NCBI GenBank assembly: GCA_963921795.1
Contig: OY997651.1
Span: 42,326,856-42,390,855 of the forward strand
Direction: 5' to 3'
Origin: Nannobrachium achirus
Taxonomy: Eukaryota > Chordata > Actinopteri > Myctophiformes > Myctophidae
DNA: 64,000 bases
Under the pieces are notes generated by a model. The model made no database searches and was not told the DNA's origin. It saw nothing but the letters and a program-made list of their open reading frames with translations. The first letter of the stretch is position 1. Every line of letters starts with the position of its first letter. This document shows, one piece after another, positions 2,143-53,700 of the stretch. A program made the position numbers and the translations under genes.

Positions 2143-2462
2143 CATTGGTTCTCAACCTGTGGGTCGAAACTCCCAGGGTGGTCCCCAAACTATTTTGAGG
2201 GGTCCCCTGATGTTAGATTTTCAAGACCTTTTTAGTACCTCTGGTTAATCATTGGCAAAATTGTCAAATATTAGATCCATAAATTGCGTTGCGAGGCGTT
2301 GTGAGCATGTAGATCTGCTATTTTCACAATGGAACAGATCGGGGCAAACTAAAAGTAATGCCAACTCCTACAATTTCAATTGCTTGTCAGGGTGGGGGGG
2401 GGGTCCCCAGTTGAATTATGATTATTTTGGGGGTCGTGGACTGAAAAGGTTGAGAACCGCTG
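2143..2462. mobile_element. hAT MITE, CAGTGGTTCTCAACC family, with recurrent hairpin
   Basis: The ends TGGTTCTCAACC and GGTTGAGAACC are inverted, flanked by the perfect 8-bp duplication CCATATCT (2135-2142 and 2463-2470). 320 bp, non-coding. A degraded copy of the recurrent hairpin lies inside at 2269-2327. Confidence 0.93.
2269..2327. repeat. Recurrent hairpin, degraded left arm
   Basis: Right arm GCGTTGTGAGCATGTAGATC then TGCTATTTTCAC is intact; the left arm is reduced to TTAGATCCATAAATTGCG. Confidence 0.75.
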
Positions 2463-2518
2463 CCATATCTCACTGCTCCTCCTGACAACCACACACCTCC
2501 TCTCCTCCACCCCCACAG

Positions 2519-50700: not shown

Positions 50701-53700
50701 TCCTATTTTAACTGGGGACCCCCCACCCCTGACGAGCTGAGAGTTGAGGCTTTACATTTTGTATAACACGGTTCTATCGTGAAAATAGCAGATCTATGGT
50801 ACATGCTCACGAGGCGTTGTGAATTTCTGCCTCTAATATTTTACAATTTGGCCAATGTTTAATTTTGGCCTTTTAGAGGTATTGAAAAGTTTAGAAATGT
50901 GCAGATACACTCTATATACCCTCTATTAAACTTTATGTTGGTTTGTTTACTGTTGAGTGAGAAAACAATGTTGCACATTGAGTTAATCATCTGGGGACCC
51001 CCCAAAATAATATGGAGACCCCCCTGGGGGTCGCGAGCCACAGGTTGAGAACCACTGGTATAGGGCATGTGGTAACCAACCAGTCGTTTGCGATCGACAC
51101 GTCGATTGCAAAAAGCCGTCACAGTAGACCCCAGGGGGTGCAGATAAAGTCGGGCTTGTTTCTAGGCTTTCCACTGGTTCTAACTGAGTGAAGACCTTCC
51201 CTCGCTTCCGTTCTCATTTCGGACTGGAAATACAGTAGACCGGATAGAAAGATGGGAGGAGAACCACCGCTCAGTTCACACGGGTGTGATTTTTAAAGCA
51301 ATGTGACATTAGTGGGCACGGTGGCGCAGTCTGTAGCACTCGCCTCATAGCTTGAAGGTCCTGGGTTCGATCCCCGCTGGGGATGCTGTGGGTGCTGGGG
51401 GCATGTTCTCTCCGCCGCGTCATCAGTGCCCATACCCTAGGTGGGGTTGGCTAAAGGGCCTTTCTGTGTGGAGTTGGCATATTCTCCCCATGTCTCCTAG
51501 GGTACGTACCCTCACAAAAACATGCAGTAATCCTGGTCTCTATCCTGAGCTGGGGTGCCTGATGGAGGGGAAAGGAACTGGTTGGAATAAGGTGTTCCTT
51601 TCACACGCTACGTCCAACCGGGGAAACTTCCCCCTGTCAGGTGAAAAGAAGCGACTTGGACTTCTCGTGCATAGAAGGAAGCATGAGGTCAGTCCGTTGT
51701 CTCCCCAGGTTGGCAGAAGGAGTGTAGCGCCCAGGATTACATTAGATAATTGACACCGGGTAAAAAAAGGGTTACAAAATATTGGTTTAAAAAATTAAAA
51801 CTAAAAAGCAATGTGACATTGAATATATATATTTTATTTTAAATCAATCAATCAATTGAACAGAATGTCTAAATGTCATTGAAATGTGTAACCCAGTAGT
51901 ACGCATTGCAGAGAAGATATCTGTAATATCAAATTATTTCATGTTCCCGTGAGTTTGTAAACAATTTTGGCATTTTTATGAACATTTTCCTGGTGAATGG
52001 TATCGTTTACACAGCTGTCCATGTTTAGTGCCCATGGGCTTGTACTGTATCTGGTTTGACCGTAATGTGACCTTCTGATCTGTCTGTCTGTGTGTGTGTG
52101 TGTGCGTGCGTGCGTGCGTGCGTGGCAGCACAAAGGTGAAGCGCCGATGTTGTTTTTATAACATACAATCTTAACAAGCACACCCTTTGTAACTACTTAT
52201 TATGAGATTATGTGAGAGTTAGAAAGATGGAGAGAGATAGCGTGACATTTTATTCCTCGAGTTCACCGTGCGTTACCTCTCACACAAAGATCATTATTTT
52301 CACAACCCCGGAACACGAGGGGACATTAATCATATTTTGGGAAACACGTACTTAAACGTGACTCATATGCTTTAAACCACACGTGCATTCCTTCAACATC
52401 ATTATTTCTGGCTCAACTCGACTCTCCCGTCCACTACGGAGTTCCACTCGGGGCTGTTTTCTTTTTGATAATCCGACTGCAGAGCAGGAGCGGGGACTTG
52501 AGGGGAACATGTCCCGCTGACTTCTCGGCCCCGCATTAAAGAACGCGTCAGTAAGTGTTGCCAGTTTTGCGGTAGCTCCTCGCTGTGAGTTCTGCTTGAT
52601 GGACGTCTAGGCTCATTGAGTCTGACACCGAGACGTTTCGGACCACCGGTGACCTCGGTGTTCGCGCCATCGTCCTGCCTTTCTCACCCTCTCCTGCTCT
52701 TCCTCCCTCCCTCCCTCCCTCTCGTTCACCCCGATCCCCCCTTGTTCCCTTCTTCTCCTCCTCACGTCCCTGCTAGGTATGGGACGATGATCGTTATTAT
52801 CGTTTATCGATTTGTGATAAAAAATCAAACCTCGGTTCGAAGTGGAGCGGTGAATCTGAGCAGCTATACCCTGTGTGTGTTGCTAAATGCCTAAACTGTA
52901 AACTGTAAACTGTGCCTGTGAGTGAGTGGTGAGTGTGCCTGGCCTGCACAAAACAGCGCCCCTCCTTTAACCTGTGTGTTGTGTGTGGCCACTCAAGGTA
53001 TTGCCAGGCTACGGACACGGCCAGCCAGCCAGCCAGCCACCCAGCCACCCAGCCACCCACATACCCACGGACATACCTGTCTATTGGGAGCGCTTTCACC
53101 GCTCCAAAAAACACACAATTATCATATCGTGGAGATTTACATTTATCATGAAATGATCCTCCGTCATGCACTGGGATCAATTCACCTTTTATTTGCCGAG
53201 CTGCATATCTGGTACCATTAAACCCTCTATAGGCTAATTGTTAAAACGGACCTGGAAATTACGTACTTGATACAGCCTTTCTTTCACCCTCTACCAAATC
53301 TCTATGCCAAATAATAGCCGATCTACAAACTCACAATGTGTTGCATTGCGACGCATTGTGAGCTTGTAGATCGGCAATGTTTTGGGGCAAATATTCCGCC
53401 CCAGGATAATGGATGTTTTTTGGGGGGATATTTTGATTATCGCGATATATAATATCGTAAATTCTTTGGTCACAATAATCGTGACATTAGATTTTCACAT
53501 GCACCTCCTTTCTTCTCCTTCCTCCTCTGACAGTCCTGATGTCCCCTCTTCTTTTTCTCTTTCTCATCTCTTCTGTATCTCCCTCGCTCTTTCCCATATT
53601 TGCCTCATCCCCACTGTTACAATACGTGTCCTGTTGTACCGAAACCCACTGTTTTGTTTACAATGAGCTGGAGCGAAATCGGTAGTAGGAGCCATTGCAC

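Follow-up and report, generated by a model that had tools for sequence, protein, structure and literature searches.

A palindrome of about 75 bp common to many MITE families of Nannobrachium achirus, probably a passenger core of composite elements

A near-perfect palindrome with a consensus of about 75 bp recurs in the genome of Nannobrachium achirus, and is probably best read as the passenger core of composite MITEs, common to many small non-autonomous DNA transposon families. The stretch analysed, referred to throughout as the window, comprised 64,000 nucleotides of contig OY997651.1 (assembly GCA_963921795.1, positions 42,326,856 to 42,390,855, forward strand). On the evidence of sequence, both the nesting of palindrome-bearing elements and the existence of composite families are shown. 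In the course of events that we favour, the palindrome would have been carried inside two small elements, here called P and Q, these would have inserted into hAT elements, and hAT transposases would have copied the resulting composites, which recur as families, as their ends and duplications suggest. The palindrome may have entered families A, C, F and J likewise, or as filler at the birth of the MITE, any carrier ends having since been lost.

Occurrence and copy number of the palindrome

Loci were scored using a profile built from 10 two-armed copies (E ≤0.0017), which gave 27 loci in the window, all matched on both strands, in agreement with the roughly 27 occurrences given in the preliminary description. 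When up to 3 mismatches were allowed, the arm AAATAGCNGATCTACAAGC was present 36 times; 100 dinucleotide shuffles gave 0.08 on average and never more than 2. Recurrence beyond the window was borne out by twenty 10-kb stretches taken by a content-blind choice, each from the 5.0-Mb position of one of contigs 1 to 20. These 200 kb gave 76 loci, a density similar to that of the window, and 18 of the 20 stretches had one or more. Genome-wide (1,658,514,493 bases searched), there were 163,724 exact matches to the 19-base arm (81,781 + 81,943) and none to its reversed control, and a second exact arm form of 26 bases, ACTAGTGAAAACAGCCGATCTACAAG, occurred 24,413 times. If the stretches are representative, the genome total is estimated at about 630,000 copies (bootstrap 440,000 to 838,000), and there are probably hundreds of thousands. 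Counts from nhmmer are minimum figures: one decayed hairpin, at L024 7082-7451, was seen on reading and had gone uncounted.

The 111 loci studied included 8 brought in by the arm pattern; L001-L008 were chosen via this pattern, and L001-L003, which have one common duplication, look like copies of one insertion. L026 contains a tandem duplication of about 3,049 bp (2571-7074) that repeats four hairpin loci, so the four pairs of L026 loci are not independent. Of the 111 loci, 93 either have a flank in common with another locus or are flanked by P sequence, and the core was therefore amplified together with its hosts. The top enriched hexamer within 26 bases outside the core was AATGTT (7 of 44 window flanks against 0.66 expected, related copies uncorrected), from which the shared unit may be slightly longer than 75 bp on one side. 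Two long palindromes of other sequence (49486-49563 and 35155-35252) were also caught by the structure model. No match to one arm pattern was found in viral_contigs, four literal arm strings were absent from PMC full text, and no paper describing this palindrome was found in the open-licence library searched, as judged on title and start of abstract.

Host families and nested elements

The window features carrying the palindrome, or parts of it, were as follows.

2143-2462, minus strand: family A hAT MITE; duplication CCATATCT; hairpin 2270-2323, one arm decayed
50660-51057, plus strand: family A hAT MITE; duplication GTATAGGG; remnant of hairpin 50781-50822
13427-13690, plus strand: family A relative; left end CAGGGGTTCTCAAAC; hairpin 13561-13627; no right end found
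15600-15823, minus strand: decayed member of family A; remnant of hairpin 15655-15703
10401-10950, plus strand: family H hAT MITE; duplication ATCTRCAG; one hairpin 10528-10797, apparently split by an insert of about 200 bp (by eye)
12715-12929, plus strand: family C hAT MITE; duplication CACTACAT; hairpin 12827-12899
26433-26929, plus strand: family C hAT MITE; duplication GTCTATAG; hairpin 26554-26594, inner deletion
9282-9600, plus strand: family G hAT left end, then element Q; hairpin 9416-9490 in Q; right inverted end of Q at about 9568-9588
8658-8844, minus strand: Q copy; inverted end at 8658; hairpin 8769-8844
19469-19966, plus strand: hAT element with G-type ends, holding element P; second end degenerate
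19558-19770, plus strand: element P; TTAA on both sides; inverted ends CCMCTTRRAYCCC; hairpin 19653-19727
5207-5319, minus strand: P copy; end 5207-5222; hairpin 5251-5319, decayed
18060-18230, plus strand: P-like flank and hairpin 18157-18230
20861-21187, plus strand: family D hAT MITE; duplication GTCAGTCA; P remnant; half hairpin 21046-21074
53106-53481, plus strand: part of a family D element; P remnant; hairpin 53309-53383
20079-20471, plus strand: two inverted hairpins, 20079-20153 and 20397-20471; CAGTGG end at 20245 between them
17620-17836, plus strand: relative of the 20245 element; hairpin 17750-17805, inner loss
33155-33368, plus strand: left end CAGTGGTTCCCAAAC and hairpin 33296-33368; no right end found
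39566-39711, plus strand: left end CAGTGGTTCCCAAAC and hairpin 39637-39711; no right end found
32526-32567, plus strand: family J hairpin; TAGGGCTGTCACGAT ends; J duplication seen at L024 9436-9822
38786-39458, plus strand: hAT MITE F; duplication GCCGAATC; hairpin remnant 39110-39143; single copy
25923-26178, no strand: palindromic element E; core shortened, 26029-26072, at the centre
9073-9106, no strand: hairpin remnant without assigned host; profile match
11248-11268, no strand: hairpin arm without assigned host; profile match
13179-13215, no strand: hairpin arm without assigned host; profile match
14181-14260, no strand: two-armed hairpin; no host end found; one flank common to L024
49585-49637, no strand: hairpin remnant without assigned host; TAGGGCTGCAACAAT upstream at 49372

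Inverted ends with an 8-bp duplication around the hairpin were found in the window for families A (twice), C (twice), D, F and H, and elsewhere for C, G, J, K and L004, as well as for D and the L023 element, these last two with 1 mismatch each in their duplications. The 8-bp duplications that the preliminary description attributed to most elements were thus recovered at 2143-2462, 10401-10950, 12715-12929, 20861-21187, 26433-26929, 38786-39458 and 50660-51057; for 9282, 20245, 19469 and 52774, the window search gave no convincing second end, nor did it for 13427, 33155 and 39566. For both family C elements (12715-12929 and 26433-26929), duplications were perfect and inverted ends had 4/12 mismatches. 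The left ends listed at the outset are present, the GGGC..CGTCC ends of 25942 being seen by eye only, and the hairpins at 10528 and 10770, at first counted separately, are apparently two halves of one (by eye). The intervening insert (10543-10745) ends in ACTTACTTAC and is perhaps a truncated retroelement (by eye). A list of duplication-flanked elements compiled from the stretches (48 rows, 8 with the hairpin) was noisy, with many L028 rows belonging to one tandem array and L014 1432 probably spurious.

Comparison of the ends of ten duplication-bearing hosts gave five groups at the 99.9% null level (A+G+H+K+L004; C; the L023 element; D+J; F), and the ends of P and Q are two further kinds. One palindrome with different ends therefore stands, and the original count of eight unrelated ends was too high: the CAG-type ends CAGTGGTTCTCAACC, CAGTGGTTCTCAAAC, CAGGGGTTCCCAAAC and CAGGGGTTCTCAAAG form one related hAT group, and the 19469 and TAGGG elements hold the palindrome via nested P or its remnant. 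In a comparison of flanks restricted to the window, the hosts had looked unrelated, a view overturned by the genome stretches. The L023 element (4088-4642) has two inverted hairpins, an internal CAGTGG end, outer ends and a near-perfect duplication, and the two-hairpin arrangement with an internal CAGTGG end was found in L010, L019, L023, L028 and at window 20079-20471.

P is a small element with TTAA flanks and the palindrome in its interior, and these flanks and its inverted ends make it a candidate TTAA (piggyBac-like) MITE. At 19554-19774, it lies between two TTAA inside the hAT element starting at 19469, and L004 is the same composite. In family K, the copies from L007, L012, L024 and L027 each have a target duplication of their own and carry P at the same place, P being made up of TTAACCACTTGAACC, then some 100 bp, the hairpin, some 45 bp and the inverted end. 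In these copies TTAA stands at either end of P, altered in L024 and L027, and a deletion in L027 has removed most of P's left part. The P remnant in D has lost one end. Q is a small element with GTCGGG ends, inverted and with GTCGGGTGGAAACC (around GTCGGGTGGAAACCTTGTATG), and the palindrome in its interior; among seven aligned copies, the hairpin sequence is kept in six (partly in L019) and lost in L023. Q is hosted by G in the window, by G in L024, and by the transposase-coding hAT of L041 and its copy L043. The core is the only sequence found common to P and Q. Between G and L004 the hAT ends are almost the same and the palindrome-bearing fillers differ, which suggests that one hAT took the palindrome up twice.

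P flanks were assigned at 30 of 111 loci (marginally for some, e.g. window_20080 and window_26048) and Q flanks at 7, together 37; the remaining 74 have neither, which weighs against nesting as a full account. A search for inner inverted repeats in 11 copies (3 C, 2 J, 2 A, and 4 CAG-related or unassigned) returned nothing beyond the ends of the hAT itself and some weak pairs (3/16 mismatches, in three of the 11), and carriers for A, C and J were therefore not seen; P, Q, A, C and J thus still share the palindrome only, as far as found.

The hAT dimerisation domain is common in the genome (150 matches scored out of 1,653 candidates), and among ten fetched loci with this domain, L039 had a K-type end. 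Its surroundings, L042, contain a complete-looking hAT (3198-7075) flanked on either side by the duplication TTCTATAG; its frame of 633 residues has the domains BED, Hermes DBD and Dimer_Tnp_hAT, and there is no hairpin within the element. The L042 and K ends match over 66 bp (80%) and 86 bp (81%), the comparison having been made for K only, and K MITEs consist of K-type hAT ends plus P; since L042 is free of the hairpin, K MITEs need not have inherited it from such a parent. A second hAT, L041 2076-7049 (duplication CTCTGAGC, two frames of 334 and 337 residues), has two weak hairpin matches. The match at 6037-6080 lies within nested Q, and this transposase-coding hAT therefore carries the palindrome at least partly via nesting. 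The match at 2486-2564 lies upstream of the transposase frames and outside Q, which again speaks against nesting as the whole explanation. L043 is 98.6% like L041 over 3,965 aligned bases, and both weak matches are present in it.

Other features of the window were a retroelement at 54434-62374, with two 400-bp repeats that are 100% identical and a minus-strand frame of 2,135 residues between them, which looks like a BEL/Pao element; its identical repeats suggest a young insertion, and no hairpin locus lies inside it by profile matches. A UnaL2 LINE 3' element matched the minus strand at 4223-4277 (54.5 bits, just below the gathering score of 55), and a tRNA-like stretch at 49640-49715 (by eye) directly adjoins the hairpin remnant at 49585. 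The stretches 17870-18000 and 26270-26355 are presumably exon-like, with a translation resembling DOCK proteins.

Core divergence and competing explanations

After the passenger reading, the explanation that survives best, itself unlikely, is that the hairpin acts in cis to aid transposition or amplification, MITEs that acquire it outcompeting others. The copy number estimated above is in keeping with this, as are the uptake of two different palindrome-bearing fillers by one hAT with G/L004 ends and the presence of the palindrome in 5 of 9 window hAT-like elements with duplications. The cis-acting module of the preliminary description was nonetheless not shown: the K-type transposase-coding hAT is without the palindrome, hairpin-free elements with similar ends and duplications exist (window 27533-28088, L026 7325-7485, L023 7490-7604), and within families the mean identity of the hairpin, 0.90, is not clearly higher than that of the flanks, 0.81 and 0.88. 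An extension of this idea, which we regard as speculative and rather improbable, is that the palindrome is a portable core giving an amplification gain to any hAT or TTAA end pair acquiring it; fold-back copying could then turn one end into an inverted pair, with element E as an extreme product, or the core could help the ends to meet.

Descent from one old MITE family, the ends having diverged or been replaced with the core in place in all descendants, is also improbable. It agrees with the union of four listed end types in one group and the clustering of A, G, H, K and L004, and with a core identity that is similar within groups (0.71, 17 pairs, the pair B20434/B20116 being excluded from this mean) and between them (0.68, 48 pairs), the null for random sequence being 0.49. 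Because these two identities are similar, the order of events cannot be read from the core. Against one old family, the ends of C, the L023 element, D+J and the F group stand apart, those of P and Q differ again, and the flanks next to the core are unlike between the C, L023 element, D/J, F, P and Q families. The suggestion of a core with replaced ends, made at the outset, came close to the nesting found.

In several hosts, the arms extend the palindrome (C26433, 12/12 bases; G, 12/13; J, 9/9; E, nearly its whole length). Among 16 window copies, own flanks paired better than those of other copies (p 0.0003; 0.003 without E; 0.0005 with one copy per family), the boundary of one C copy having been corrected before this test with a first result already known. 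In 50 copies from 25 groups, beyond 75 bp, own-flank pairing was weak (p 0.08), and host-specific arms were rejected as a general rule. In a genome-wide search allowing up to 3 mismatches, C host arms without the core turned up at 3 places and the reversed control at 1, and of the two core-less places fetched neither was in a C context; with core-less C arms nearly absent, there is no sign of the core dropping into a pre-existing C palindrome.

The last result also bears on a very short parasite, the palindrome itself being a mobile unit that inserts into MITEs, as had been proposed initially and as we now consider very unlikely. Several unrelated backgrounds, star-like divergence and the 18 of 111 loci without a shared flank fit such a unit. 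Against it, no direct duplication was seen by eye at the core in window copies, flanks that do correspond are inverted, the 93 loci noted above were copied with their hosts, and 14 of the 18 flank-less loci score ≤38 bits, so that decay accounts for many of them.

The stem covaries: in 13 copies, both partners have changed in 17 of its 36 base pairs, a level reached in 0 of 500 shuffles. Selection on an RNA hairpin, as a small-RNA precursor or transcript structure, would predict this covariation and has one weak Rfam match (MIR2600 at one copy; 38.1 bits, where the gathering score is 98), but is highly improbable, since G-T mismatches do not significantly exceed A-C mismatches (34 to 26 in 13 copies; 103 to 78 in 56 hairpins, p 0.074), giving little support for an RNA function, and none of the 14 Rfam matches in the window up to E 1 reached gathering score or was convincing at the hairpins. 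Template switching in replication can make and repair such stems (PMC8794818), and in the passenger reading, with which the covariation also agrees, the likeness of the arms would be kept by this copying of arm from arm and not by selection on an RNA hairpin.

Relation to described elements and implications

MITEs are usually classed by their ends, and are thought to retain ends and lose middles; here several hAT groups have a 75-bp middle in common with two or more further types of small element. A shared central domain with different heads and tails is also a feature of CORE-SINEs and other SINE families, but these are retroposons and have no palindrome. Among fish, hairpin-forming non-autonomous elements include Angel elements and the inverted repeats of Tol2, one kind of which lies inside a hAT; these are likened here by description.

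The preliminary description knew of no element of this form. The closest precedent found is the CMITE group of the coral Acropora, MITE families with different TIRs and a common interior of about 75 bases of unknown origin, which are about 100 bp long and belong without exception to the TTAA type, with an estimate of some 1,600 copies for one coral (PMC2872659). As in CMITEs, different TIRs (those of P, Q and the hAT hosts) surround a shared interior of about 75 bases, with TTAA as in P; unlike CMITEs, the core here is palindromic, spans hAT and TTAA elements and has far more copies, the likeness being drawn from the published description. MER6, as described, is a MITE with the V domain of SINEs in its interior and ends matching an autonomous DNA transposon (PMC6887750); it is similar in having an interior from another kind of transposable element, and differs in being one family with a SINE domain, where several families with a palindrome are found here.

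Annotation of such genomes calls for caution, in that libraries based on ends will split these copies and those based on interiors will merge unrelated families. If the palindrome were a portable core, it would play among DNA transposons the part that shared central domains play among SINEs. Since relatives with and without the palindrome occur in one genome, the effect of an internal hairpin on transposition can be tested directly. By nesting and the amplification of composites, one sequence can spread through many transposon families.
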